From: Bolinopsis microptera
Lineage: Eukaryota; Ctenophora; Tentaculata; Lobata; Bolinopsidae
Direction: 5' to 3'
Assembly (NCBI RefSeq): GCF_026151205.1
Contig: NC_087073.1
Span: forward strand, 21,108,837-21,172,836
DNA length: 64,000 nt
The notes under the pieces are model-generated. The model was not told the DNA's origin. It saw only the letters and a list, made by a program, of their open reading frames with translations, and made no database searches. A program made the translations under genes and the position numbers. Shown here piece after piece: positions 5,205 to 63,720 of this stretch. Each line of letters starts with the position of its first letter. Position 1 is the stretch's first letter.

Positions 5205-8200
5205 GATGTGATGTATCGTTAGTTAATTGTAACTGTAAGAGAGACTATATCAAGATGAAGATTGAGAAGGAGAAGCTGACCAACCAGCTCTCCTCCTCCA
5301 GTCAGAAGACTAAGAAGAGGATGAGACCGAGGGGTTCTATGCCGTCCTCCTGGTTTACTCTGCCTACTGATCTTCAAGCTATGGAGGTGAGGTTTTAACT
5401 GGCAGAGATTAGTTATTTATAGTGTTACTACTACTATTAGTTAGTTTGTTAGTTGAATTGATAACTTCGCTGTCAGCAATAATCAAAGAAAATAATACGA
5501 GATAAAAGGGTTGATATTAAAATCTGCCAGGATAAAATAGAACAAGAGCTGCTGGCAACCAGAGAGGAAAGTAGAGAGAAATGGAGCAGTCAGTATTCCT
5601 TCTTTCTGGGAGTGATAGGAAGTGCAGTGGGCCTGGGCAACATTTGGCGGTTTCCTTCCTTAATTGCAATGTAAGTAACTAATTGGGAACATTTTGTGAT
5701 AAAAGAACACTAACTTAGAGTTAGAATACTGTTGAAGTGAATGTGTCTCAGTGATCTCCAATCTAAGTGTTGTAATAAACAGCTGGAGGTTGAATTTATA
5801 ATACCGTAATGAGGTAATGTATTCAGGTTTGGAGGCGGCCCCTTTATTGTGGCGTATATAATAGTCCTGCTCCTGATCGGACTCCCTATGATGACGTTGG
5901 AGCTTACTCTGGGGCAGAAGTTTCAGGGCGGAGATGTGGACGCGTTCGGGTCCATCAACCCTCGCTTCAGGTACAATCTGGGTTGGGAGGTTACAGGTTC
6001 GGGTCCATCAACCCTCGCTTCAGGTACTATCTGGGTTGGGAGGTTACAGGTTCGGGTCCATCAACCCTCGCTTCAGGTACTATCTGGGTTGGGAGGTTAC
6101 AGGTTCGGGTCCATCAACCCTCGCTTCAGGTACTATCTGGGTTGGGAGGTTACAGGTTCGGGTCCATCAACCCTCGCTTCAGGTACTATCTGGGTTGGGA
6201 GGTTACAGGTTCGGGTCCATCAACCCTCGCTTCAGGTACTATCTGGGTTGGGAGGTTACAGGTTCGGGTCCATCAACCCTCGCTTCAGGTACTATCTGGG
6301 TTGGGAGGTTACAGGTTCGGGTCCATCAACCCTCGCTTCAGGTACTATCTGGGTTGGGAGGTTACAGGTTCGGGTCCATCAACCCTCGCTTCAGGTACTA
6401 TCTGGGTTGGGAGGTTACAGGTTCGGGTCCATCAACCCTCGCTTCAGGTACTCTATGGGTTGGGAGGTTACAGGTTCGGGTCCATCAACCCTCGCTTCAG
6501 GTACTATCTGGGTTGGGAGGTTACAGGTTCGGGTCCATCAACCCTCGCTTCAGGTACTATCTGGGTTGGGAGGTTACAGGTTCGGGTCCATCAACCCTCG
6601 CTTCAGGTACTATCTGGGTTAAGAGGTTACAGGTTCGGGTCCATCAACCCTCGCTTCAGGTACTATCTGGGTTGGGAGGTTACAGGTTCGGGTCCATCAA
6701 CCCTCGCTTCAGGTACTATCTGGGTTGGGAGGTTACAGGTTCGGGTCCATCAACTCTCGCTTCAGGTACTATCTGGGTTGGGAGGTTACAGGTTCGGGTC
6801 CATCAACCCTCGCTTCAGGTACTATCTGGGTTGGGAGGTTACAGGTTCGGGTCCATCAACTCTCGCTTCAGGTACTATCTGGGTTGGGAGGTTACAGGTT
6901 CGGGTCCATCAACTCTCGCTTCAGGTACTATCTGGGTTGGGAGGTTACAGGTTCGGGTCCATCAACCCTCGCTTCAGGTACTCTCTGGGTTGGGAGGTTA
7001 CAGGTTCGGGTCCATCAACCCTCGCTTCAGGTACTATCTGGGTTGGGAGGTTACAGGTTCGGGTCCATCAACCCTCGCTTCGGGTCCATCATCCCTCGCT
7101 TCAGGTACTATCTGGGTTAAGAGGTTACAGGTTCGGGTCCATCAACCCTCGCTTCAGGTACTATCTGGGTTGGGAGGTTACAGGTTCGGGTCCATCAACC
7201 CTCGCTTCAGGTACTATCTGGGTTGGGAGGTCACAGGTTCGGGTCCATCAACCCTCGCTTCAGGTACTATCTGGGTTGGGAGGTTACAGGTTCGGGTCCA
7301 TCAACTCTCGCTTCAGGTACTATCTGGGTTGGGAGGTTACAGGTTCGGGACCATCAACCCTCGCTTCAGGTACTATCTGGGTTGGGAGGTCACAGGTTCG
7401 GGTCCATCAACCCTCGCTTCAGGTACTATCTGGGTTGGGAGGTTAACTTTCCCACTTTACTAAAGAAATAACATAAGGTCCAGTTAACCGAATATAATGA
7501 GGAGGATCCATTACAATTGCTTACCCCAGAGGTATTGCTTACCCCCCCCCCCCTCCAGAGGTATTGGGGTCGCGTCAGTACTCTGCTCCTTCATCGCCTC
7601 CACTAACTACACAGTTATCCTGTCCTGGGCAGCTATATACTTCTTCGAGAGTATGGTACCTTCACTCCCCTACTCCATACAATCCAAGGAAGGAGCCACT
7701 AATGGGACTTACACTTTTGATAGATATATTCACGGGGCTATACTTCACTTCAATAACACTCACTTCGGTAAGTATATAAGGTAAGACTAACACGTGATGC
7801 CCATATGAGGTAATCACCAAGTCAGATTCACAGACTCATATTTCTTGGTTTCTGAACTATCTTATAGTTAATAAAATTGTCCCTTCACCAAAGTCAAGAT
7901 ACACAAGTTTGTCACCTATTTAACACTTCCAACCTAGGCGCCGAGACGCTAGACTCAGTCCACGGTAACTTCAACTGGAAGTCTTTTGGAGCACTGCTCC
8001 TAATCTGGCTGCTTATCTACGCCTGTATCTTCAAAGGGATAAGAGTTGTCAGTCACGTTGTCAAGGTTACAGCTACTGTGCCCCTTTTCATCATCATCAT
8101 TCTAGCTGTTATGGGTGAGTGAAATAGCTTATAGCCGGGGAATAGCCAACCAGCCAGTAACTAAAAGTTTGTAAGTGAGCAATACTGCAGCCCTTATTTC

Positions 8201-24654: not shown

Positions 24655-37333
<12,679 letters not shown>

Positions 37334-37433
37334 NNNNNNNNNNNNNNNNNNNNNNNNNNNNNNNNNNNNNNNNNNNNNNNNNNNNNNNNNNNNNNNNNNN
37401 NNNNNNNNNNNNNNNNNNNNNNNNNNNNNNNNN
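37334..37433. other. Assembly gap, 100 N
   Basis: Exactly 100 N, the usual placeholder length for a gap of unknown size. A different repeat lies on each side, so the true distance and even the linkage between the left and right parts of the window are uncertain. Confidence 0.99.
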
Positions 37434-44900: not shown

Positions 44901-47900
44901 ATTATGACCGATAAGGTAATACTAGATGTTATGTTTTATTAATTATGACCGATAAGGTAATACTAGATGTTATGTTTTATTAATTATGACTGATAAGGTA
45001 ATACTAGATGTTATGTTTTATTAATTATGACCGATAAGGTAATACTAAATGTTATGTTTTATTAATTATGACCGCTAAGGTAATACTAGATGTTATGTTT
45101 TACTAATTATGACCGATAAGGTAATACTAAATGTTAGTATTACCATGTTACCTGGTAACCATGGTAATATGACTGAATCTGATAAACTTTAAATGAATTC
45201 AGGACTCGGAGGGAAGCATGGATCCAGAAGCAAAAAGAGATGCCCTTCTTGACGCCAAGAATTTAATAAATGAGATTTCAAGTTCCAAAAAATCTAGAAG
45301 AAAACGAGGAGGTAGTTTGTTTATTTAGCTTGACCAGTACTGTCAACATGGCAGGAATCTAAAATGAAGGAAATTGGCAATATAAAATCTTTCTACTATG
45401 TATTTTGAAAATCTAATATTATTATTTTCATTAAAACAATTATTTGTGCTGGTAGCGGTCGCTTTCTCATATTCTAACAAAGAGATCAGTACTTACTAGC
45501 CACTCTGTTACATGATTGTGTTCACGTATTAAAGTCTGTGGTCGCTCTGGACAATCCAATTAGCTCCTACAGTTCCATTTGCATTGCACTTTGATGTTGT
45601 TGTTTTAAAATAAAATTGACAATTTCAGCCAACTGTCTACCACTGACTTTTAATAAAGTTCAATAAATTTTAAACTTTGGTCACAGCAATACATAAGCTG
45701 AATCTGCCATGCATAATACTTTTTGTTTACGAGATGAGACACCATTAAGTAGCTTATCTGCAATAACTCTGCTTGTTGCTACTTCTTTCCAATTGTCTTT
45801 ATTTCGTTGTGCGTCTCAAATCTCAGAACCGTGGAATAAGCCTGGAAATTGAATAAATTTGTTGCTAAATCATGCTTGAAGAAATGGTGTGCCCCCGTTT
45901 TTAATAATAATTAATAAACAGCTTGTTTGCAGCTACTTTAACAAGACACCTGCATCTTAACACGACCTTTAAACTAATGCTCCAAGGTACCTTGTGTAGT
46001 GCTTGCTAGATTAAATTCATCATCTAGTTGCAACATATAAATAGTATCTAGCTGGGTCATACAACTGTTAAATACATTGTTAGATACATTGTACAATAAT
46101 ACATGATACACTTCTCGTTTTACACAGATCACATTTCTCTAGTTCACATACTCCAGGTAAAGACAGCAAAGAAGGGGACACTAAGAAGAAGACAGTAAAG
46201 TCAGCCAAGTCTAAGAAGGAAGCTGAAACCCCCATCATACCGGTCAGTGACGGAGAGTACAAGGAGAAACAGCCTCCTAAATCCCTGGTAGCCATGCATA
46301 AAGACAATATTGACAGTTCCGTCTCTATCACTAAGAAGAAGGGCTCTCAATCAGGTACATTGGTAGGCCCCCCCCCCCCCCCCCCCCCCCCTCGTATAGC
46401 AACCCTCATCAGCTCATATCAGCTCATATCAGCTTGTATCAGCTTGTATCAGCTTGTATCAGCTTGTATCAGCTTGTATCAGCTTGTATCAGCTTGTATC
46501 AGCTTGTATCAGCTTGTATCAGCTTGTATCAGCTTGTATCAGCTTGTATCAGCTTGTATCAGCTTGTATTAGCTTGTATCAGCTTGTATCAGCTTGTATC
46601 AGCTTGTATTAGCTTGTATCAGCTTGTATCAGCTTGTATCAGCTTGTATCAGCTTGTATCAGCTTGTATCAGCTTGTATCAGCTTGTATCAGCTTGTATC
46701 AGCTTGTATCAGCTTGTATCAGCTTGTATTAGCTTGTATCAGCTTGTATCAGCTTGTATCAGCTTGTATCAGCTTGTATCAGCTTGTATCAGCTTGTATC
46801 AGCTTGTATCAGCACTTTTATCAACACTTTTATCAACACTTCTATCAGCACTTTTATCAACACTTCTATCAACACTTCTATCAGCACTTCTATCAGCACT
46901 TTTATCAACACTTCTATCAACACTTCTATCAGCACTTCTATCAGCACTTTTATCAACACTTCTATCGGCAGACTTCCCTTAATCCCTTAGATTCCATGAA
47001 GAATGTTGAGTCTCCGGTGCTGTACTGTCTACATCCAACTAATAAACACTCCCATCAGGTTCGAAGAAGAGACGTTCAGCAAAGTGTAGTGACCGTGTTG
47101 CCTGGGACACAGACGCCAGGAGTGAGGGGGCTAACTCTGAGACTGAGGACGTGTTCTCCCAGCCTCCCCAAACTATGCTGCTTGACAGTGACAATGAGGA
47201 GCAGGTATGTTCTCAAAATGTTTACTTTTAGGAAATACTAAAATAATCAATGTCTACTGACTAATGATTTAATAGTTTAGTCATATTAACCACATGATCA
47301 CCTCGCAGTCAGGGTCTCCACAGCGGAAGAGAACAGACAGATCCCTGAGACAGCGATCAGATCAGACTCTGGATAAAACAGCTCCCAACACTCCCTCCAC
47401 CTCCGCAGAGCTCTCCAAAACTGCGGATATGTCGGGTTCCCTGACAAAGGACAGGTCACATGACCTGGAGGAGGGAGAGGAGGATATGGAGGAGAGGATG
47501 AGGCAGGAGGAGCGGGAAAAGGAGCTCAAAACTCTAGAGCTTCTCGAGAGAAGGATTGGCATAGAGGACGGGAGTCTGAAACGGCTAGGTGAGTCGAGCA
47601 GTGACCTACATTCTTACTCTGATTCAGATTTAATATCTCAACCCTCAGTGTCTCTTCAGGTTTGAAATTTTAACGAATGCACTTAATATTCCACCCACAG
47701 GGGAGAAAGTAGAGATTATAGAAAAGGAGACGAACCAACAGAAAGATAAGGAGGCAGCCCTCAGACAGCAAGAAATTGAGGAGGAATCAGCGAGGAAGGA
47801 AGAGGAACGCCGGGCTTACGAAGAGGTAATATTAGGGTGGTCACGTGATGTCCTTATTAGGGTGGTCACGTGATGTCCTTATTAGGGTGGACACGTGATG

Positions 47901-48606
47901 TCCTTATTAGGGTGGTCACGTGGTGTGGTTACGTGGTGTGGATAACATGACTTAAATTTCTCTGGCAGATGTTTGGGTTTGAGTTACGGTTTATCCATAG
48001 TGTTAGAGTGCAAGGTTTTGGATTACAAGCCAGAGCTACATGACATGTTAAAGTCACAAGAAAATGAGCGAATGATAATTAATCATCTGATTAACACCAG
48101 TAGTGTAGTGTGCACAGTACTAACACCTACTGAGTCTGTTCTTATAGTCAGCACTACCTTTGTGTTTAATCTTAGCAAGCCTCCTAGACAATACCTTACA
48201 GTTGAAGCTTTCTGAATTGGGGCATTATTCAAATCCACTAATATAACCTGACCAGGTGATGAGAGCCCAAGAAGCTGAGTACGAGAAACATCTCCAGAAC
48301 ATGTTGAGACAAGAGGAAGAAAGAAACAAGCAGTACCTTGACTCGCTCAGGAAGGAGGAGATACAGCGAGACATCAAGAGAAAACTCGCTATGTTCAGAC
48401 AGCACCAAAACCTGGAGCTGCGCCAACATGTTAGACTATCCAAACTCAAGCAGAAAATCACTGTTCCCTTCAAATATTCCTATTTCCCTATTTTAAAAGT
48501 AAATTATATGAAGATTGTAATGAACCCTGAACAATCTCTGAGAAAATCAAGCGGTGGTAACAATAAGAATGTTAAGAAAAAGAAAATGACACTGAAACGT
48601 GTTTGA
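38996..48606 (+). CDS. KIAA2012-like coiled-coil protein, about 17-18 exons
   Basis: Exons joining in phase: 38996-39064, 39508-39624, 39841-39984, 40152-40270, 40396-40576, 41463-41610, 41763-41950, 42223-42295, 42500-42663, 43064-43238, 43382-43518, 45203-45311, 46157-46354, 47059-47204, 47309-47588, 47701-47825 and 48256-48606 (TGA), about 907 residues. The N-terminus (MRSKLFSPLIRGHG) and the block VPKTFTTNKGAIVLYTSE match what I recall of the vertebrate KIAA2012 N-terminus (LLSRGHGK and LPKTFSTRKGALILYSE). The middle is low-complexity and Ser/Pro/Glu-rich. The C-terminal exons are Glu/Lys/Arg-rich coiled coil (EEDMEERMRQEEREKELKTL; KEAALRQQEIEEESARKEEE), as in the DUF4670 region of that family. 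Function is unknown. An extra exon at 42924-43024 is possible but breaks phase. Several introns contain repeats that begin at splice sites. Confidence 0.75.
39771..39852 (+). repeat. Triplicated 3' splice site of a KIAA2012-like exon
   Basis: GGGTGCTATAGT occurs three times (from 39771, 39810 and 39840), each preceded by a (ctttca)-type pyrimidine tract. Only the last follows a proper AG (tttgtcag) and leads into the open exon GGT GCT ATA GTG CTG TAC. The first two copies end in acca and accg, so they lack a usable AG. Confidence 0.8.
42378..42471. repeat. Two-copy intronic duplication
   Basis: The segment ggcggtacatcacccaaacg with flanking ttaatattaggtaaatg occurs twice, just upstream of the exon starting at 42500. 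Confidence 0.7.
42767..42923 (+). repeat. G-rich ggggtcag repeat ending at an acceptor
   Basis: About 150 bp of ggggggtcag units of variable G length. The last tcag (ending at 42923) is followed by an open stretch, 42924-43024, whose translation FAPEKADKFELFKKSRSEEF looks coding. Joined in phase 0 to the previous exon it reads well, but its only donor (AC before gtgata) is phase 2, whereas the next exon needs phase 0. The exon may be alternative, or a base may be wrong. Confidence 0.7.
44067..45138 (+). repeat. 41-bp minisatellite, about 26 copies
   Basis: The unit contains taattatgaccgataaggta followed by atactagatgttatgtttta. It lies in the 1.7-kb intron between the exons at 43382 and 45203. 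Each unit reads ATAAGgtaatact, a donor-like string in the gene's sense direction. Variants (gataac, gctaag, aaatg/agtg) are scattered and partly periodic. Confidence 0.95.
45312..46156. other. Intron without recognised content
   Basis: AT-rich intron of the KIAA2012-like gene. No repeat, hairpin or additional exon was seen. Confidence 0.5.
46419..46974 (+). repeat. 10-bp and 12-bp intronic satellites
   Basis: About 40 copies of agcttgtatc (46419-46810) pass into about 14 copies of a related 12-bp unit (agcacttttatc / aacacttctatc). They are preceded by a C run at 46370-46391. The array begins about 65 bp after the donor at 46354. Open frames through it are repeat translation only. All units carry a tatcag string resembling a weak acceptor. 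Confidence 0.95.
47830..47935 (+). repeat. 25-bp repeat starting next to a splice donor, 3-4 copies
   Basis: The exon ends GAAGAG at 47825 and the intron begins gtaatattagggtggtcacg. The unit attagggtggtcacgtgatg + tcctt then repeats, with the last copy diverging to ggtgtggttacgtgg. The array starts four to five bases into the intron. Confidence 0.85.
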
Positions 48607-50625: not shown

Positions 50626-53600
50626 TCATTCCTCTTTTGCTACAATTTGCCTCATAACATCCACAAATTGATCCTCGCTAATATCTTTTGGAGTTTTTTG
50701 TTTCAGAGACTCTGTCATTTTTCGGAAAATGTTCATGTTGTTTCGCCAATGTTGATCAAATTTGACTCCTGATTTTTGTTGTGAGTAAAGCAGGGACATA
50801 GCTCTCATTTCAGTTGCTAGCGCGGGGGAGATAGTGGAATCCCATACACACCTGCAATTAGAGTACAAATAAGCTATTGATAATTACTAACATTTACAAT
50901 TTCTATCATATTTATTAAATCAGAAATATAATTATGTTTTGATTACAATTTCTATCATATTTATTAAATCAGAAATATAATTATGTTTTGATTAAAATAG
51001 TCTATAGATATACAACAATCAGACAACAATTAAGAGAAAAGTATAATAAATATGTAAGATTATGTAATTGAACACTACTAACGTGTACTCCAAGTGCATA
51101 GGAACTGGTCGTCCGTCGTTAGTGTGCATAACACAGAATAGCTGCATCTGTAAATATAATGTAAATATTACAAACCTCACACTACTAGAGTAAATAATAG
51201 CTCTAATTAGACTGCTGTGATAAAATCTTACTAATAGACTGCTACATTTCATTTACAGATGTTCCCAATTAAGTCAAGGTGCCAAGTTCACTCTATTTAG
51301 GCCTGTAGTAAGTAATATTGAACAAATTTGTAACATTTGTTCATGACTGGGCTCCAAAAAAACACTTAATTCGGCAGATATTTAACGTTTCTGCTATTTC
51401 TTGGTACAACCTAAGATATGTGTATGTTATAATGACATGCATATGTTATAATGCTACTACTAACTTCACTGGTAGGTGTAGAGCCTCTAAAAGGGGACAC
51501 TATGACCCCCAAGCAGGGATCTATACGTCCGTCAAGTGATCTCATGTGTTGCTGGTGAACAGACTGACACACTATATCGTGTTGGGAAGGACGGGGCGAG
51601 CTTGTCGGGTGAGAATGGTACCAGCCAATCACAGTCATGTCCTGAAATCACGTAATTAGTAACAACCAATCACTGTCACTGAACTGCCTCCCTCTAAAAG
51701 TGTCTAAGTAATACCTGGTGAGGGTTACCTGCTGTGTGAGTAATACCTGGTGAGGGTTACCTGCTGTGTGAGTAATACCTGGTGAGGGTTACCTGCTGTG
51801 TTAGTAATACCTGGTGAGGGTTACCTGCTGTGTGAGTAATACCTGGTGAGGGTTACCTGCTGTGTAAGTAATACCTGGTGAGGGTTACCTGCTGTGTGAG
51901 TAATACCTGGTGAGGGTTACCTGCTGTGTGAGTAATACCTGGTGAGGGTTACCTGCTGTGTGAGTAATACCTGGTGAGGGTTACCTGCTGTGTGAGTAAT
52001 ACCTGGTAAGGGTTACCTGCTGTGTGAGTAATACCTGGTGAGGGTTACCTGCTGTGTGAGTAATACCTGGTGAGGGTTACCTGCTGTGTGAGTAATACCT
52101 GGTGAGGGTTACCTGCTGTGTGAGTAATACCTGGTGAGGGTTACCTGCTGTGTGAGTAATACCTGGTGAGGGTTACCTGCTGTGTGTGTAATACCTGGTG
52201 AGGGTTACCTGCTGTGTGTGTAATACCTGGTGAGGGTTACCTGCTGTGTGAGTAATACCTGGTGAGGGTTACCTGCTGTGTAAGTAATACCTGGTGAGGG
52301 TTACCTGCTGTGTGAGTAATACCTGGTGAGGGTTACCTGCTGTGTGAGTAATACCTGGTGAGGGTTACCTGCTGTGTGAGTAATACCTGGTGAGGGTTAC
52401 CTGCTGTGTGAGTAATACCTGGTGAGGGTTACCTGCTGTGTGAGTAATACCTGGTGAGGGTTACCTGCTGTGTGTGTAATACCTGGTGAGGGTTACCTGC
52501 TGTGTGTGTAATACCTGGTGAGGGTTACCTGCTGTGTGAGTAATATCTGGTGAGGGTTACCTGCTGTGTGAGTAATACCTGGTGAGGGTTACCTGCTGTG
52601 TGAGTAATACCTGGTGAGGGTTACCTGCTGTGTAAGTAATACCTGGTGAGGGTTACCTGCTGTGTGAGTAATACCTGGTGAGGGTTACCTGCTGTGTGAG
52701 TAATACCTGGTGAGGGTTACCTGCTGTGTAAGTAATACCTGGTGAGGGTTACCTGCTGAGTGAGTAATACCTGGTGAGGGTTACCTGCTGTGTGAGTAAT
52801 ACCTGGTGAGGGTTACCTGCTGTGTGAGTAATACCTGGTGAGGGTTACCTGCTGTGTGAGTAATACCTGGTGAGGGTTACCTGCTGTGTAAGTAATACCT
52901 GGTGAGGGTTACCTGCTGTGTTAGTAATACCTGGTGAGGGTTACCTGCTGTGTGAGTAATACCTGGTGAGGGTTACCTGCTGTGTGAGTAATACCTGGTG
53001 AGGGTTACCTGCTGTGTGAGTAATACCTGGTGAGGGTTACCTGCTGTGTGAGTAATACCTGGTGAGGGTTACCTGCTGTGTGAGTAATACCTGGTGAGGG
53101 TTACCTGCTGTGTGAGTAATACCTGGTGAGGGTTACCTGCTGTGTGAGTAATACCTGGTGAGGGTTACCTGCTGTGTGAGTAATACCTGGTGAGGGTTAC
53201 CTGCTGTGTGAGTAATACCTGGTGAGGGTTACCTGCTGTGTGAGTAATACCTGGTGAGGGTTACCTGCTGTGTGAGTAATACCTGGTGAGGGTTACCTGC
53301 TGTGTGAGTAATACCTGGTGAGGGTTACCTGCTGTGTGAGTAATACCTGGTGAGGGTTACCTGCTGTGTGAGTAATACCTGGTGAGGGTTACCTGCTGTG
53401 TGAGTAATACCTGGTGAGGGTTACCTGCTGTGTGAGTAATACCTGGTGAGGGTTACCTGCTGTGTGAGTAATACCTGGTGAGGGTTACCTGCTGTGTAAG
53501 TAATACCTGGTGAGGGTTACCTGCTGTGTGAGTAATACCTGGTGAGGGTTACCTGCTGTGTGAGTAATACCTGGTGAGGGTTACCTGCTGTGTGAGTAAT

Positions 53601-56600
53601 ACCTGGTGAGGGTTACCTGCTGTGTGAGTAATACCTGGTGAGGGTTACCTGCTGTGTGAGTAATACCTGGTGAGGGTTACCTGCTGTGTGAGTAATACCT
53701 GGTGAGGGTTACCTGCTGTGTGAGTAATACCTGGTGAGGGTTACCTGCTGTGTAAGTAATACCTGGTGAGGGTTACCTGCTGTGTGAGTAATACCTGGTG
53801 AGGGTTACCTGCTGTGTAAGTAATACCTGGTGAGGGTTACCTGCTGTGTGAGTAATACCTGGTGAGGGTTACCTGCTGTGTGAGTAATACCTGGTGAGGG
53901 TTACCTGCTGTCTGAGTAATACCTGGTGAGGGTTACCTGCTGTGTGAGTAATATCTGGTGAGGGTTACCTGCTGTGTAAGTAATACCTGGTGAGGGTTAC
54001 CTGCTGTGTGAGTAATACCTGGTGAGGGTTACCTGCTGTGTAAGTAATACCTGGTGAGGGTTACCTGCTGTGTGAGTAATACCTGGTGAGGGTTACCTGC
54101 TGTGTGAGTAATACCTGGTGAGGGTTACCTGCTGTGTGAGTAATACCTGGTGAGGGTTACCTGCTGTGTAAGTAATACCTGGTGAGGGTTACCTGCTGTC
54201 TGAGTAATACCTGGTGAGGGTTACCTGCTGTCTAAGTAATACCTGGTGAGGGTTACCTGCTGTCTAAGTAATACCTGGTGAGGGTTACCTGCTGTCTAAG
54301 TAATACCTGGTGAGGGTTACCTGCTGTCTAAGTAATACCTGGTGAGGGTTACCTGCTGTGTAAGTAATACCTGGTGAGGGTTACCTGCTGTGTAAGTAAT
54401 ACCTGGTGAGGGTTACCTGCTGTGTGAGTAATACCTGGTGAGGGTTACCTGCTGTGTGAGTAATACCTGGTGAGGGTTACCTGCTGTGTGAGTAATACCT
54501 GGTGAGGGTTACCTGCTGTGTAAGTAATACCTGGTGAGGGTTACCTGCTGTGTAAGTAATACCTGGTGAGGGTTACCTGCTGTGTGAGTAATACCTGGTG
54601 AGGGTTACCTGCTGTGTGAGTAATACCTGGTGAGGGTTACCTGCTGTGTAAGTAATACCTGGTGAGGGTTACCTGCTGTGTGAGTAATACCTGGTGAGGG
54701 TTACCTGCTGTGTGAGTAATACCTGGTGAGGGTTACCTGCTGTGTGAGTAATACCTGGTGAGGGTTACCTGCTGTGTAAGTAATACCTGGTGAGGGTTAC
54801 CTGCTGTGTGAGTAATACCTGGTGAGGGTTACCTGCTGTGTGAGTAATACCTGGTGAGGGTTACCTGCTGTGTAAGTAATACCTGGTGAGGGTTACCTGC
54901 TGTGTGAGTAATACCTGGTGAGGGTTACCTGCTGTGTGAGTAATACCTGGTGAGGGTTACCTGCTGTGTGAGTAATACCTGGTGAGGGTTACCTGCTGTG
55001 TGAGTAATACCTGGTGAGGGTTACCTGCTGTGTGAGTAATACCTGGTGAGGGTTACCTGCTGTGTGAGTAATACCTGGTGAGGGTTACCTGCTGTGTAAG
55101 TAATACCTGGTGAGGGTTACCTGCTGTGTAAGTAATACCTGGTGAGGGTTACCTGCTGTGTGAGTAATACCTGGTGAGGGTTACCTGCTGTGTAAGTAAT
55201 ACCTGGTGAGGGTTACCTGCTGTGTAAGTAATACCTGGTGAGGGTTACCTGCTGTGTGAGTAATACCTGGTGAGGGTTACCTGCTGTGTGAGTAATACCT
55301 GGTGAGGGTTACCTGCTGTGTGAGTAATACCTGGTGAGGGTTACCTGCTGTGTGAGTAATACCTGGTGAGGGTTACCTGCTGTGTGAGTAATACCTGGTG
55401 AGGGTTACCTGCTGTGTGAGTAATACCTGGTGAGGGTTACCTGCTGTGTGAGTAATACCTGGTGAGGGTTACCTGCTGTGTGTGTAATACCTGGTGAGGG
55501 TTACCTGCTGTGTGAGTAATACCTGGTGAGGGTTACCTGCTGTGTGAGTAATACCTGGTGAGGGTTACCTGCTGTGTAAGTAATACCTGGTGAGGGTTAC
55601 CTGCTGTGTGAGTAATACCTGGTGAGGGTTACCTGCTGTGTAAGTAATACCTGGTGAGGGTTACCTGCTGTGTGAGTAATACCTGGTGAGGGTTACCTGC
55701 TGTGTGAGTAATACCTGGTGAGGGTTACCTGCTGTGTGAGTAATACCTGGTGAGGGTTACCTGCTGTGTGAGTAATACCTGGTGAGGGTTACCTGCTGTG
55801 TGAGTAATACCTGGTGAGGGTTACCTGCTGTGTGAGTAATACCTGGTGAGGGTTACCTGCTGTGTGAGTAATACCTGGTGAGGGTTACCTGCTGTGTGAG
55901 TAATACCTGGTGAGGGTTACCTGCTGTGTGAGTAATACCTGGTGAGGGTTACCTGCTGTGTGAGTAATACCTGGTGAGGGTTACCTGCTGTGTGAGTAAT
56001 ACCTGGTGAGGGTTACCTGCTGTGTGAGTAATACCTGGTGAGGGTTACCTGCTGTGTGAGTAATACCTGGTGAGGGTTACCTGCTGTGTGAGTAATACCT
56101 GGTGAGGGTTACCTGCTGTGTGAGTAATACCTGGTGAGGGTTACCTGCTGTGTGAGTAATACCTGGTGAGGGTTACCTGCTGTGTGTGTAATACCTGGTG
56201 AGGGTTACCTGCTGTGTGAGTAATACCTGGTGAGGGTTACCTGCTGTGTGAGTAATACCTGGTGAGGGTTACCTGCTGTGTGAGTAATACCTGGTGAGGG
56301 TTACCTGCTGTGTGAGTAATACCTGGTGAGGGTTACCTGCTGTGTGAGTAATACCTGGTGAGGGTTACCTGCTGTGTGAGTAATACCTGGTGAGGGTTAC
56401 CTGCTGTGTGAGTAATACCTGGTGAGGGTTACCTGCTGTGTGTGTAATACCTGGTGAGGGTTACCTGCTGTGTGAGTAATACCTGGTGAGGGTTACCTGC
56501 TGTGTGAGTAATACCTGGTGAGGGTTACCTGCTGTGTGAGTAATACCTGGTGAGGGTTACCTGCTGTGTGAGTAATACCTGGTGAGGGTTACCTGCTGTG

Positions 56601-59600
56601 TGAGTAATACCTGGTGAGGGTTACCTGCTGTGTGAGTAATACCTGGTGAGGGTTACCTGCTGTGTGAGTAATACCTGGTGAGGGTTACCTGCTGTGTGAG
56701 TAATACCTGGTGAGGGTTACCTGCTGTGTGAGTAATACCTGGTGAGGGTTACCTGCTGTGTGAGTAATACCTGGTGAGGGTTACCTGCTGTGTGAGTAAT
56801 ACCTGGTGAGGGTTACCTGCTGTGTGAGTAATACCTGGTGAGGGTTACCTGCTGTGTGTGTAATACCTGGTGAGGGTTACCTGCTGTGTGAGTAATACCT
56901 GGTGAGGGTTACCTGCTGTGTGTGTAATACCTGGTGAGGGTTACCTGCTGTGTGAGTAATACCTGGTGAGGGTTACCTGCTGTGTAAGTAATACCTGGTG
57001 AGGGTTACCTGCTGTGTGAGTAATACCTGGTGAGGGTTACCTGCTGTGTGAGTAATACCTGGTGAGGGTTACCTGCTGTGTGAGTAATACCTGGTGAGGG
57101 TTACCTGCTGTGTGAGTAATACCTGGTGAGGGTTACCTGCTGTGTGAGTAATACCTGGTGAGGGTTACCTGCTGTGTGAGTAATACCTGGTGAGGGTTAC
57201 CTGCTGTGTGAGTAATACCTGGTGAGGGTTACCTGCTGTGTGAGTAATACCTGGTGAGGGTTACCTGCTGTGTGAGTAATACCTGGTGAGGGTTACCTGC
57301 TGTGTGAGTAATACCTGGTGAGGGTTACCTGCTGTGTGAGTAATACCTGGTGAGGGTTACCTGCTGTGTGAGTAATACCTGGTGAGGGTTACCTGCTGTG
57401 TGAGTAATACCTGGTGAGGGTTACCTGCTGTGTGAGTAATACCTGGTGAGGGTTACCTGCTGTGTGAGTAATACCTGGTGAGGGTTACCTGCTGTGTGAG
57501 TAATACCTGGTGAGGGTTACCTGCTGTGTGAGTAATACCTGGTGAGGGTTACCTGCTGTGTGAGTAATACCTGGTGAGGGTTACCTGCTGTGTGAGTAAT
57601 ACCTGGTGAGGGTTACCTGCTGTGTGAGTAATACCTGGTGAGGGTTACCTGCTGTGTGAGTAATACCTGGTGAGGGTTACCTGCTGTGTGAGTAATACCT
57701 GGTGAGGGTTACCTGCTGTGTGAGTAATACCTGGTGAGGGTTACCTGCTGTGTGAGTAATACCTGGTGAGGGTTACCTGCTGTGTGAGTAATACCTGGTG
57801 AGGGTTACCTGCTGTGTGAGTAATACCTGGTGAGGGTTACCTGCTGTGTGAGTAATACCTGGTGAGGGTTACCTGCTGTGTGAGTAATACCTGGTGAGGG
57901 TTACCTGCTGTGTGAGTAATACCTGGTGAGGGTTACCTGCTGTGTGAGTAATACCTGGTGAGGGTTACCTGCTGTGTGAGTAATACCTGGTGAGGGTTAC
58001 CTGCTGTGTGAGTAATACCTGGTGAGGGTTACCTGCTGTGTGAGTAATACCTGGTGAGGGTTACCTGCTGTGTGAGTAATACCTGGTGAGGGTTACCTGC
58101 TGTGTGAGTAATACCTGGTGAGGGTTACCTGCTGTGTGAGTAATACCTGGTGAGGGTTACCTGCTGTGTGAGTAATACCTGGTGAGGGTTACCTGCTGTG
58201 TGAGTAATACCTGGTGAGGGTTACCTGCTGTGTAAGTAATACCTGGTGAGGGTTACCTGCTGTGTGAGTAATACCTGGTGAGGGTTACCTGCTGTGTAAG
58301 TAATACCTGGTGAGGGTTACCTGCTGTGTGAGTAATACCTGGTGAGGGTTACCTGCTGTGTGAGTAATACCTGGTGAGGGTTACCTGCTGTGTAAGTAAT
58401 ACCTGGTGAGGGTTACCTGCTGTGTGAGTAATACCTGGTGAGGGTTACCTGCTGTGTGAGTAATACCTGGTGAGGGTTACCTGCTGTGTGAGTAATACCT
58501 GGTGAGGGTTACCTGCTGTGTGAGTAATACCTGGTGAGGGTTACCTGCTGTGTGAGTAATACCTGGTGAGGGTTACCTGCTGTGTGAGTAATACCTGGTG
58601 AGGGTTACCTGCTGTGTGAGTAATACCTGGTGAGGGTTACCTGCTGTGTGAGTAATACCTGGTGAGGGTTACCTGCTGTGAGTAATACCTGGTGAGGGTT
58701 ACCTGCTGTGTAAGTAATACCTGGTGAGGGTTACCTGCTGTGTGAGTAATACCTGGTGAGGGTTACCTGCTGTGTGAGTAATACCTGGTGAGGGTTACCT
58801 GCTGTGTGTAATACCTGGTGAGGGTTACCTGCTGTGTAATACCTGGTGAGGGTTACCTGCTGTGTAAGTAATACCTGGTGAGGGTTACCTGCTGTGTGAG
58901 TAATACCTGGTGAGGGTTACCTGCTGTGTGAGTAATACCTGGTGAGGGTTACCTGCTGTGTGAGTAATACCTGGTGAGGGTTACCTGCTGTGAGTAATAC
59001 CTGGTGAGGGTTACCTGCTGTGTGAGTAATACCTGGTGAGGGTTACCTGCTGTGTGAGTAATACCTGGTGAGGGTTACCTGCTGTGTGAGTAATACCTGG
59101 TGAGGGTTACCTGCTGTGTGAGTAATACCTGGTGAGGGTTACCTGCTGTGTGAGTAATACCTGGTGAGGGTTACCTGCTGTGTGAGTAATACCTGGTGAG
59201 GGTTACCTGCTGTGTGAGTAATACCTGGTGAGGGTTACCTGCTGTGTGAGTAATACCTGGTGAGGGTTACCTGCTGTGTGAGTAATACCTGGTGAGGGTT
59301 ACCTGCTGTGTGAGTAATACCTGGTGAGGGTTACCTGCTGTGTGAGTAATACCTGGTGAGGGTTACCTGCTGTGTGAGTAATACCTGGTGAGGGTTACCT
59401 GCTGTGTGAGTAATACCTGGTGAGGGTTACCTGCTGTGTGAGTAATACCTGGTGAGGGTTACCTGCTGTGTGAGTAATACCTGGTGAGGGTTACCTGCTG
59501 TGTGAGTAATACCTGGTGAGGGTTACCTGCTGTGTGAGTAATACCTGGTGAGGGTTACCTGCTGTGTGAGTAATACCTGGTGAGGGTTACCTGCTGTGTG

Positions 59601-62600
59601 AGTAATACCTGGTGAGGGTTACCTGCTGTGTGAGTAATACCTGGTGAGGGTTACCTGCTGTGTGAGTAATACCTGGTGAGGGTTACCTGCTGTGTGAGTA
59701 ATACCTGGTGAGGGTTACCTGCTGTGTGAGTAATACCTGGTGAGGGTTACCTGCTGTGTGAGTAATACCTGGTGAGGGTTACCTGCTGTGTGAGTAATAC
59801 CTGGTGAGGGTTACCTGCTGTGTGAGTAATACCTGGTGAGGGTTACCTGCTGTGTGAGTAATACCTGGTGAGGGTTACCTGCTGTGTGAGTAATACCTGG
59901 TGAGGGTTACCTGCTGTGTGAGTAATACCTGGTGAGGGTTACCTGCTGTGTGAGTAATACCTGGTGAGGGTTACCTGCTGTGTGAGTAATACCTGGTGAG
60001 GGTTACCTGCTGTGTGAGTAATACCTGGTGAGGGTTACCTGCTGTGTGAGTAATACCTGGTGAGGGTTACCTGCTGTGTGAGTAATACCTGGTGAGGGTT
60101 ACCTGCTGTGTGAGTAATACCTGGTGAGGGTTACCTGCTGTGTGAGTAATACCTGGTGAGGGTTACCTGCTGTGTGAGTAATACCTGGTGAGGGTTACCT
60201 GCTGTGTGAGTAATACCTGGTGAGGGTTACCTGCTGTGTGAGTAATACCTGGTGAGGGTTACCTGCTGTGTGAGTAATACCTGGTGAGGGTTACCTGCTG
60301 TGTGAGTAATACCTGGTGAGGGTTACCTGCTGTGTGAGTAATACCTGGTGAGGGTTACCTGCTGTGTGAGTAATACCTGGTGAGGGTTACCTGCTGTGTG
60401 AGTAATACCTGGTGAGGGTTACCTGCTGTGTGAGTAATACCTGGTGAGGGTTACCTGCTGTGTGTGTAATACCTGGTGAGGGTTACCTGCTGTGTGAGTA
60501 ATACCTGGTGAGGGTTACCTGCTGTGTGAGTAATACCTGGTGAGGGTTACCTGCTGTGTGAGTAATACCTGGTGAGGGTTACCTGCTGTGTGAGTAATAC
60601 CTGGTGAGGGTTACCTGCTGTGTGAGTAATACCTGGTGAGGGTTACCTGCTGTGTGAGTAATACCTGGTGAGGGTTACCTGCTGTGTGAGTAATACCTGG
60701 TGAGGGTTACCTGCTGTGTGAGTAATACCTGGTGAGGGTTACCTGCTGTGTGAGTAATACCTGGTGAGGGTTACCTGCTGTGTGAGTAATACCTGGTGAG
60801 GGTTACCTGCTGTGTGAGTAATACCTGGTGAGGGTTACCTGCTGTGTAAGTAATACCTGGTGAGGGTTACCTGCTGTGTGAGTAATACCTGGTGAGGGTT
60901 ACCTGCTGTGTGAGTAATACCTGGTGAGGGTTACCTGCTGTGTGAGTAATACCTGGTGAGGGTTACCTGCTGTGTGAGTAATACCTGGTGAGGGTTACCT
61001 GCTGTGTGAGTAATACCTGGTGAGGGTTACCTGCTGTGTGAGTAATACCTGGTGAGGGTTACCTGCTGTGTGAGTAATACCTGGTGAGGGTTACCTGCTG
61101 TGTGAGTAATACCTGGTGAGGGTTACCTGCTGTGTGAGTAATACCTGGTGAGGGTTACCTGCTGTGTGAGTAATACCTGGTGAGGGTTACCTGCTGTGTG
61201 AGTAATACCTGGTGAGGGTTACCTGCTGTGTGAGTAATACCTGGTGAGGGTTACCTGCTGTGTGAGTAATACCTGGTGAGGGTTACCTGCTGTGTGAGTA
61301 ATACCTGGTGAGGGTTACCTGCTGTGTGAGTAATACCTGGTGAGGGTTACCTGCTGTGTGAGTAATACCTGGTGAGGGTTACCTGCTGTGTGAGTAATAC
61401 CTGGTGAGGGTTACCTGCTGTGTGAGTAATACCTGGTGAGGGTTACCTGCTGTGTAAGTAATACCTGGTGAGGGTTACCTGCTGTGTAGTAATACCTGGT
61501 GAGGGTTACCTGCTGTGTGAGTAATACCTGGTGAGGGTTACCTGCTGTGTGAGTAATACCTGGTGAGGGTTACCTGCTGTGTGAGTAATACCTGGTGAGG
61601 GTTACCTGCTGTGTGAGTAATACCTGGTGAGGGTTACCTGCTGTGTGAGTAATACCTGGTGAGGGTTACCTGCTGTGTGTAATACCTGGTGAGGGTTACC
61701 TGCTGTGTGAGTAATACCTGGTGAGGGTTACCTGCTGTGTGAGTAATACCTGGTGAGGGTTACCTGCTGTGTGAGTAATACCTGGTGAGGGTTACCTGCT
61801 GTGTGAGTAATACCTGGTGAGGGTTACCTGCTGTGTGAGTAATACCTGGTGAGGGTTACCTGCTGTGTGAGTAATACCTGGTGAGGGTTACCTGCTGTGT
61901 GAGTAATACCTGGTGAGGGTTACCTGCTGTGTGAGTAATACCTGGTGAGGGTTACCTGCTGTGTGAGTAATACCTGGTGAGGGTTACCTGCTGTGTGAGT
62001 AATACCTGGTGAGGGTTACCTGCTGTGTGAGTAATACCTGGTGAGGGTTACCTGCTGTGTGAGTAATACCTGGTGAGGGTTACCTGCTGTGTGAGTAATA
62101 CCTGGTGAGGGTTACCTGCTGTGTGAGTAATACCTGGTGAGGGTTACCTGCTGTGTGAGTAATACCTGGTGAGGGTTACCTGCTGTGTGAGTAATACCTG
62201 GTGAGGGTTACCTGCTGTGTGAGTAATACCTGGTGAGGGTTACCTGCTGTGTGAGTAATACCTGGTGAGGGTTACCTGCTGTGTGAGTAATACCTGGTGA
62301 GGGTTACCTGCTGTGTGAGTAATACCTGGTGAGGGTTACCTGCTGTGTGAGTAATACCTGGTGAGGGTTACCTGCTGTGTGAGTAATACCTGGTGAGGGT
62401 TACCTGCTGTGTGAGTAATACCTGGTGAGGGTTACCTGCTGTGTGAGTAATACCTGGTGAGGGTTACCTGCTGTGTGTAATACCTGGTGAGGGTTACCTG
62501 CTGTGTAAGTAATACCTGGTGAGGGTTACCTGCTGTGTGAGTAATACCTGGTGAGGGTTACCTGCTGTGTGAGTAATACCTGGTGAGGGTTACCTGCTGT

Positions 62601-63720
62601 GTGAGTAATACCTGGTGAGGGTTACCTGCTGTGTGAGTAATACCTGGTGAGGGTTACCTGCTGTGTGAGTAATACCTGGTGAGGGTTACCTGCTGTGTGA
62701 GTAATACCTGGTGAGGGTTACCTGCTGTGTGAGTAATACCTGGTGAGGGTTACCTGCTGTGTGAGTAATACCTGGTGAGGGTTACCTGCTGTGTGAGTAA
62801 TACCTGGTGAGGGTTACCTGCTGTGTGAGTAATACCTGGTGAGGGTTACCTGCTGTGTGAGTAATACCTGGTGAGGGTTACCTGCTGTGTGAGTAATACC
62901 TGGTGAGGGTTACCTGCTGTGTGAGTAATACCTGGTGAGGGTTACCTGCTGTGTAATACCTGGTGAGGGTTACCTGCTGTGTGAGTAATACCTGGTGAGG
63001 GTTACCTGCTGTGTGAGTAATACCTGGTGAGGGTTACCTGCTGTGTGAGTAATACCTGGTGAGGGTTACCTGCTGTGTGAGTAATACCTGGTGAGGGTTA
63101 CCTGCTGTGTGAGTAATACCTGGTGAGGGTTACCTGCTGTGTGAGTAATACCTGGTGAGGGTTACCTGCTGTGTGAGTAATACCTGGTGAGGGTTACCTG
63201 CTGTGTAAGTAATACCTGGTGAGGGTTACCTGCTGTGTGAGTAATACCTGGTGAGGGTTACCTGCTGTGTGAGTAATACCTGGTGAGGGTTACCTGCTGT
63301 GTGAGTAATACCTGGTGAGGGTTACCTGCTGTGTGAGTAATACCTGGTGAGGGTTACCTGCTGTGTGAGTAATACCTGGTGAGGGTTACCTGCTGTGTGA
63401 GTAATACCTGGTGAGGGTTACCTGCTGTGTGAGTAATACCTGGTGAGGGTTACCTGCTGTGTGAGTAATACCTGGTGAGGGTTACCTGCTGTGTGAGTAA
63501 TACCTGGTGAGGGTTACCTGCTGTGTAAGTAATACCTGGTGAGGGTTACCTGCTGTGTGAGTAATACCTGGTGAGGGTTACCTGCTGTGTGATGAGCTCC
63601 CGGATCTTGTTCTGGAGAACAGTACACTCAGTCTGGTCCGCAGGGTTGTTCAGGGAACAGGGAAACACGCTCTGTACTTGTAGTGTCAACTTGTTCGGGT
63701 CCCATTTACCACCTAGATAC
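50626..63720 (-). CDS. MPND-like JAMM/MPN+ domain protein (3' exons)
   Basis: Four exons join in exact phase: 63720-63582, 51641-51465, 51147-51083 and 50851-50626 (stop TGA). The first encodes YLGGKWDPNKLTLQVQSVFP, the start of an MPN domain. The second carries the intact JAMM metal-binding motif HSHPTSSPRPSQHD (H-x-H-x10-D) inside VIGWYHSHP and continues PCLGVIVSPF. The third has LFCVMHTNDGRPVPMHLEY, and the last a helical tail with TPKD. Block order and these motifs match animal MPND rather than MYSM1 or BRCC36 as I recall them. JAMM proteins of this type are zinc metalloproteases or readers acting on ubiquitin or modified chromatin. The activity here is inference. Upstream exons, including the JAMM Glu, lie beyond the window. 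The intron 63581-51642 is 11.9 kb and nearly all a 32-bp minisatellite derived from the 63582 exon-intron junction. Confidence 0.85.
51660..51704. other. Short unique intron end before the MPND-like acceptor
   Basis: Between the 32-bp array and the acceptor at 51642-51643 (sense tgatttcag) lie only about 60 bp of unique intron, with a pair of related ccaatcac strings. Confidence 0.5.
51705..63592 (-). repeat. 32-bp minisatellite made from a splice donor, about 370 copies
   Basis: The unit on the plus strand is gtaatacctggtgagggtta + cctgctgtgtga (32 bp). On the sense (minus) strand it reads CACACAGCAGgtaaccctca, then ccaggtattact. The first copy overlaps the real exon end: the exon finishes ...CTCATCACACAGCAG at 63582 and continues gtaacc. 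Units are nearly identical, with recurring variants (gtgtaag, gtgtgtg, gtctaag), some clustered, and a few 1-4-bp deletions near 58680-62950. It fills about 99 percent of the intron. Confidence 0.98.

Follow-up and report, generated by a model that had tools for sequence, protein, structure and literature searches.

An 11.9-kb ctenophore intron made almost wholly of tandem copies of its own 5′ splice junction

The MPND-like gene

The 64,000 nucleotides of Bolinopsis microptera DNA analysed here, referred to as the window, comprise bases 21108837-21172836 of contig C2 (NC_087073.1) in a genome of 264.65 Mb. On the minus strand they contain part of an MPND-like gene, one intron of which consists almost wholly of a 32-bp tandem array that repeats the end of the preceding exon together with the donor that follows it. 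The gene model, built with 9.6 kb of additional upstream sequence, has eight coding exons encoding 734 residues with no internal stops, and all seven introns begin with GT and end with AG. Its first four coding exons lie beyond the window, at 66316-66142, 65988-65720, 65442-64471 and 64229-64048 in the same numbering. Within the window, coding exon 5 (63582..63720, 139 nt) stands upstream of the array and contributes its last 10 bases to the first unit, while coding exon 6 (51465..51641) is the first after the array and encodes the stretch GWYHSHP...SQHD; exons 7 (51083..51147) and 8 (50626..50851), the latter with the stop codon, complete the gene. The long third exon encodes a five-residue repeat, NMTRD, five times consecutively.

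Pfam assigns to the protein a RAMA domain (E 9e-28) followed by a JAB/MPN domain (JAB, E 2e-11, residues 510-610), both above the curated cut-offs; this pair is taken here as the definition of MPND, and the HSHP...SQHD residues of exon 6 are presumably those of the JAMM motif. The exons ending at 63582 and starting at 51641 meet in phase 0 (Q|D) after residue 579. The JAB match spans this junction, and in a phmmer search the domain was aligned to Rpn11, with the alignment running across the junction as well. When the genome was searched with the 231-residue C-terminal part of the protein, all five matches fell at its own locus, and no second MPND-like copy able to cover for this gene was found in that search.

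Anatomy of the 32-bp array

Tandem Repeats Finder (TRF) reports a single array at 51707-63592, with a period of 32, 372 copies and 98% matches. Read on the minus strand, each unit consists of 10 nt of exon end and 22 nt of intron start (CACACAGCAG|GTAACCCTCACCAGGTATTACT). The upstream exon ends in CACACAGCAG, its last base being 63582, and the exon-donor boundary at this position reads CTCATCACACAGCAG|GTAACC. The intron (51642..63581, minus strand, phase 0) measures 11,940 nt. The distance between the last CAG|GTAACC donor and the acceptor is 87 nt (51642..51728), which would be the length of the intron if it held a single unit. CAG|GTAACC is unbroken in all 372 units, and a second donor-like site, CAG|GTATTA, is present in 370 of them. 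Selection on the donor was considered as the cause of the 372/372 conservation and is not needed, most unit positions being equally invariant. The 16-mer CACACAGCAGGTAACC occurs in 323 exact copies in the window and, across the genome, in 323 on the same strand and none on the other, so that all exact copies belong to this array; the exact-match search found no dispersed copies elsewhere in the genome, inexact copies not having been searched for.

An earlier, sequence-only reading of the window had placed the exon end at 63582 with a gtaacc donor, had described an 11.9-kb intron of tandem 32-bp units and had assigned the 63582 and 51641 exons to one gene. The exon end is borne out by the minus-strand reading and the eight-exon model, the intron by its measured length and the 372 TRF units, and the single gene by the phase 0 join, the 734-residue model and the JAB and Rpn11 alignments across the junction. 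Its estimate of about 370 copies of the exon end and donor is accurate for CAG|GTAACC, whereas the whole 16-mer is exact only 323 times.

Consequences of donor choice

Splicing from the first, exon-proximal donor (GT at 63580..63581, minus strand) gives the full 734-residue protein, and among the donors tested it is the only one to do so. Products were computed for 741 later donors (371 CAG|GTAACC and 370 CAG|GTATTA): 739 lead to 590 residues, one to 591 and one to 585, and the HSHP...SQHD stretch is in frame in none of them. Every third later donor preserves the frame yet meets an in-frame stop inside the array; the first stop lies 33 nt past the first donor. The sequence-only reading had proposed that later donors shift the frame by 32-nt steps, which describes most of them but not every third, and that the spliceosome must either choose the first donor or tolerate any. 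The latter choice can be narrowed, since none of the 741 later donors can give catalytic protein. The first donor is therefore required whenever that protein is made, and the spliceosome presumably picks it in this intron. Nothing in its nine bases sets it apart from the later donors. RNA structure hiding the later donors was also considered and rejected: the first donor has an unpaired fraction of 0.42 against 0.37-0.41, being at most marginally more open, and eight units fold no better than eight shuffled units (z 0.4).

A second array in the window

The same anatomy recurs on the plus strand of the window in a gene for an SLC6-type transporter. This array starts inside an exon at 5827..5970 and occupies 5944..7445 with about 28 units of 53 bp, each combining the last 27 nt of the exon with the first 26 nt of the intron. 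The exonic part of the unit encodes FGSINPRFR, the corresponding paralogous sequence being FGSMNPRLR. Searching the genome with PF00209 locates exons of this family at the array locus, and the joined exons match it with E 6.2e-22. The intron is 1,588 nt long, with 136 nt counted from the last donor, and 26 donors match CAG|GTAC[TA]A. Two paralogues on the same contig (L031 and L032) have an intron at the same place that is 91 nt long and has no donor array, so that the exonic half of the SLC6 unit is coding sequence of long standing, and the simplest reading is that the array was added later. By eye, the 91-nt introns of both paralogues contain an apparent duplicate, now decayed, of their own 3′ junction, suggesting that duplication on the acceptor side happens too.

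Arrays elsewhere in the genome

Twenty 10-kb stretches, distributed by position over contigs C1-C5, and one neighbour of the window were taken as a sample of 210 kb (GC content 39.2%). In the sample and the window, 40 arrays with a period of 10-400, at least three copies and a score of at least 150 were listed, those starting at 24.6-37.3 kb of the window being left out. Exon end and donor are copied in three of the 40, namely the MPND-like and SLC6 arrays and one in a gene for a TGF-beta-type receptor (L014), which has 28-bp units, 26 donors and the junction CTG|GTAAGT. The receptor assignment is based on an Activin_recp match (E 0.0011; 20.3 bits, just under the cut-off of 20.9), and the next exon appears by eye to encode a membrane helix, for which Pfam gave no support. 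No exon-start copies were recognised among the 40 arrays, by eye and with flanking open reading frames (ORFs) of at least 28 codons. By a donor position weight matrix, enrichment among the sampled arrays is weak, with scores of at least 5 in 13 of 38 arrays against seven for the reversed units.

Genome-wide, triplets of AGGTAAG with gaps of 12-42 gave 1,637 + 1,846 = 3,483 pattern matches against 95 + 15 = 110 for the reversed motif. The corresponding figures are 598 + 782 = 1,380 against 12 + 0 = 12 for AGGTAAGT and 600 + 826 against 160 + 149 for TTTCAGG. As single motifs, AGGTAAG and its reversal occur 22 and 30 times in the 210-kb sample and five times and once in the window; for TTTCAGG the counts are 34 against 16 and six against five.

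Among the first 100 places listed per motif search, nine distinct donor arrays were present, and the flanks of all nine were read. Three copy the exon end of a gene with some family support: a GNL2-like GTPase (MMR_HSR1, E 0.004, below cut-off), an ADAM (Reprolysin, 8.6e-5, above cut-off) and mL49 (Img2, 4e-5, below cut-off; the match is to the exon that follows the array). The labels GNL2 and mL49 are assumptions that reach further than the family matches. Another three probably copy the exon end, two in near-identical copies of a membrane-protein gene and one in an ORF at C1:980934; these sequences gave no convincing Pfam family match, and the membrane-protein gene and the donor motif are on opposite strands. 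In the TGF-beta receptor, GNL2-like, mL49, ADAM and membrane-protein cases, the first stop is found 6 to 45 nt past the first donor. Two near-identical loci, C1:36576-37703 and C1:761375-762150, carry the same array of 32-bp units, 29 nt of which are exon-like; this array is older than, or was copied with, the gene.

The first 100 places of the acceptor search held 15 distinct arrays, and the exon side was read in 13 (C3:6355929 and C3:10522199 being left out). By eye, the exon start is copied in five of the 13 (L059, L060, L062, L063 and L065), the others showing no copy or an unclear one. The notion that such arrays form at donors only and never at acceptors was rejected, as acceptor arrays exist. 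The GNL2-like exon (L053, from about 904 to the end, and L035) is preceded by an acceptor array and followed by a donor array of 38-bp units, read at its near end. As read from the sequence, an intact GNL2-like exon would depend on the site nearest to it on either side, the last acceptor and the first donor. At L062 (C1:25355260-25355720), copies of the exon start lie at the acceptor, and a repeat containing CAG|GTATGT comes after them; the latter could instead be a coding repeat, since it is open.

Further repeats were noted in passing. The window array at 4-2008 contains CTG|GTAAGA on the minus strand, with no clear abutting coding exon seen. Arrays beginning some 4 to 17 nt into an intron, just past the donor and with no exon copies, were observed at 47830-47926 of the window, at 9393-9569 of L014 and at C1:3114108 and may form a sister class. 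A short CACGTGATGCCCATATAAGG-like motif recurs near 7790 in the window, near 65550 beyond it and near 4780 of L011; it is possibly an interspersed repeat. At 26387-26708 of the window, 159 A are directly followed by 163 G, and 32379-33035 is a run of 657 T. These homopolymer runs fall in or next to a noisy 46-bp array region (24656-37219), whose end is close to a 100-N gap (37334-37433), and the region looks like unpolished or wrong assembly.

Origin of the MPND-like array

The array is very probably a minisatellite born at a splice junction, of the kind known in amphioxus as a "mirage". Growth of the intron by repeated duplication of its own 5′ junction, as the sequence-only reading had suggested, is supported by the flanks of the array, its variant units and the recurrence in the SLC6 gene. 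It is favoured because the exonic part of unit 1 is coding sequence in a conserved domain and the last unit leads into a complete 87-nt intron, because the same anatomy occurs in the SLC6 gene of the window, two paralogues of which have a 91-nt intron, and because the unit variants at positions 0 and 2 match the intron flank. The exon edge is T-CACACA, whereas the intron directly past the last unit is T-TAGACA, and the flanks thus differ at positions 0 and 2. The commonest unit variant, C>T at position 0 (42 of 372 units), and the rarer C>G at position 2 (six units) are exactly the intron-flank bases that differ from the exon edge. Both are skewed to the distal half of the array (permutation P 0.0016 and 0.0045, respectively, with units treated as independent). 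T>A at position 31, present in 15 units, corresponds to neither flank, and its skew is not significant (P 0.17). Eight spacing variants all fall inside one short stretch, and the signal for a 32-bp unit composed of two older 16-bp halves is weak (P 0.03). The variants fit a duplication between similar short exonic and intronic words, followed by slippage, and are supportive of this origin rather than proof of it.

The starting point would have been an ordinary short intron of about 87 nt. A stretch running from the last coding bases of the exon to about 22 nt inside the intron would have been duplicated in tandem and then expanded to 372 units through slippage or unequal exchange, which would also homogenise the units. 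Such growth would be tolerated as long as the right mRNA can still be made from the exon-proximal donor and each added copy leaves as intron. Exon definition, with U1 at the first donor paired with the acceptor 139 nt upstream, would presumably choose that donor, and the products of leaked later-donor use would be removed, since a stop is soon met. Since the number of copies never affects the correct product, the length of the array would be expected to drift freely.

Several observations weigh against this account. Use of the first donor is deduced from the sequence, in classical duplicated-donor tests the intron-proximal site is often preferred, a choice that would here leave the array in the message, and predicted RNA folding offers no reason for the first donor to stand out. 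In the SLC6 gene, the first in-frame stop lies 649 nt past the donor, so that clean-up mediated by a stop is not general. The six position-2 units are clustered at indices 290-294 and 303, and the variant test rests on few events. As to recurrence, only three of the 40 sampled arrays are of this kind, two of them in this window; triplet matches clump within arrays, so that the pattern counts are not array counts; and of the nine donor arrays listed, three lack an exon-end copy (C1:3114108, C2:2666901 and C2:3987015) and three have only a probable one.

Alternative explanations

Regulated splicing of the type described for human IFI6 would mean that several array donors are used and that stop-containing products act as an off switch via nonsense-mediated decay. 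All donors are indeed identical, the 741 later ones tested lead to 585-591 residues, and in IFI6 two downstream repeat units act as donors (PMC4526556). Such regulation is nevertheless unlikely, as arrays of this sort, with units unrelated to one another, occur in several genes and suggest a mutational process over gene-by-gene control. It is more improbable that the gene is dead or dying because the array has stopped correct splicing. A preference for the intron-proximal donor would yield truncated protein only, but 734 codons are open, the splice sites are all canonical and there is one locus; comparable arrays also occur in conserved genes such as the GNL2-like gene and mL49.

An inflation of the copy number during assembly deserves slightly less credence still. 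Long near-identical arrays are hard to size, and elsewhere in the window there are long runs of a single base and a 100-N gap, yet the scattered unit variants and the eight spacing variants argue for real sequence, and the junction anatomy is independent of copy number. Recursive splicing, in which each CAG|GTAACC would serve first as acceptor and then as donor so that the 11.9 kb of array would be excised in a series of silent steps, appears very improbable. The unit junction ACTCACACAGCAG|GTAACC contains an AG|GT that would regenerate the same donor, but the pyrimidine tract read from the unit is poor, the distance to the branch-like TACTCAC is very short, and the junction array of L014 (CTG|GTAAGT) has no AG before GT. 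Although some genomes gain introns from dispersed elements, insertion of a mobile or introner-like element at the junction can practically be dismissed, as 323 of the 323 exact 16-mers of the genome are inside this array and the exonic part of the unit is coding sequence within the JAB domain.

Implications for splice-site choice

Beyond the single gene, it is conceivable, although the chances seem somewhat less than even, that splice choice in this ctenophore follows a strict exon-proximal rule (first donor, last acceptor), under which splice-junction satellites could grow almost without limit and become a genome-wide source of intron length. If this is true, each such gene offers an experiment of nature that bears on exon versus intron definition in an animal of an early-branching lineage. 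Hundreds of donors, all identical except for their distance from the exon, amount to a natural test of site choice by the spliceosome, and the GNL2-like exon with arrays on both sides separates exon-proximal from intron-proximal rules in one transcript. Junction duplication would also provide a simple route from short introns to long ones.

Comparison with known systems

The closest kind is found in the amphioxus mirages, in which the repeated units lie across a 5′ or 3′ splice junction (PMC3087553, PMC3902484). Many mirages carry AG/GT signals, both intron boundaries can be affected and RT-PCR (reverse-transcription PCR) suggests normal splicing (PMC3087553, PMC3902484). For the MPND-like gene, the open reading frame and the single locus are indirect signs of undisturbed splicing. 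The MPND-like array shares with them units that span a splice junction (here 10 nt of exon and 22 nt of intron in 372 copies) and that carry splice signals (CAG|GTAACC in 372/372). The two differ in size, the BflGb6 haplotypes having six and three units of 150-160 bp and Adh3 having units of 10-72 bp, compared with 372 units of 32 bp here. Allele length instability is described for mirages, whereas the present data consist of one assembly, whose homogeneous units and spacing variants would fit such instability. A phenomenon described mainly in amphioxus is extended, at a far larger size, to a ctenophore, in which further arrays were found by genome sampling.

Three systems outside amphioxus are also relevant. 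The minisatellite of human IFI6 (6-16) is located at an exon end. It contains multiple splice donors, and two downstream units are used, making isoforms (PMC4526556), whereas no later donor tested here gives catalytic protein. Internal tandem repeats in human segmental duplications have units of about 30 bp, similar to the 32 bp found here, and some lie at exon-intron boundaries; they average four repeats and are tied to novel introns and alternative transcripts (PMC2812944). Intron gain by tandem duplication (the AGGT model, exemplified by potato RdRp) likewise involves a duplication across an intron-exon boundary (PMC4974935), but there a new intron arises, whereas here an existing intron would have been lengthened, as the SLC6 paralogues show for the SLC6 case.

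A literature search on ctenophore introns and minisatellites yielded a single, unrelated paper. Term searches of the main texts of PMC11797021 and PMC12221973 turned up no minisatellite or tandem-repeat account of this kind, the single tandem repeat in the former being a discarded scaffold, and that of PMC10232365 turned up no word beginning with "tandem". The kind of array is therefore known, while its copy number, the phylum in which it occurs and its apparent genome-wide spread look new within the literature searched.

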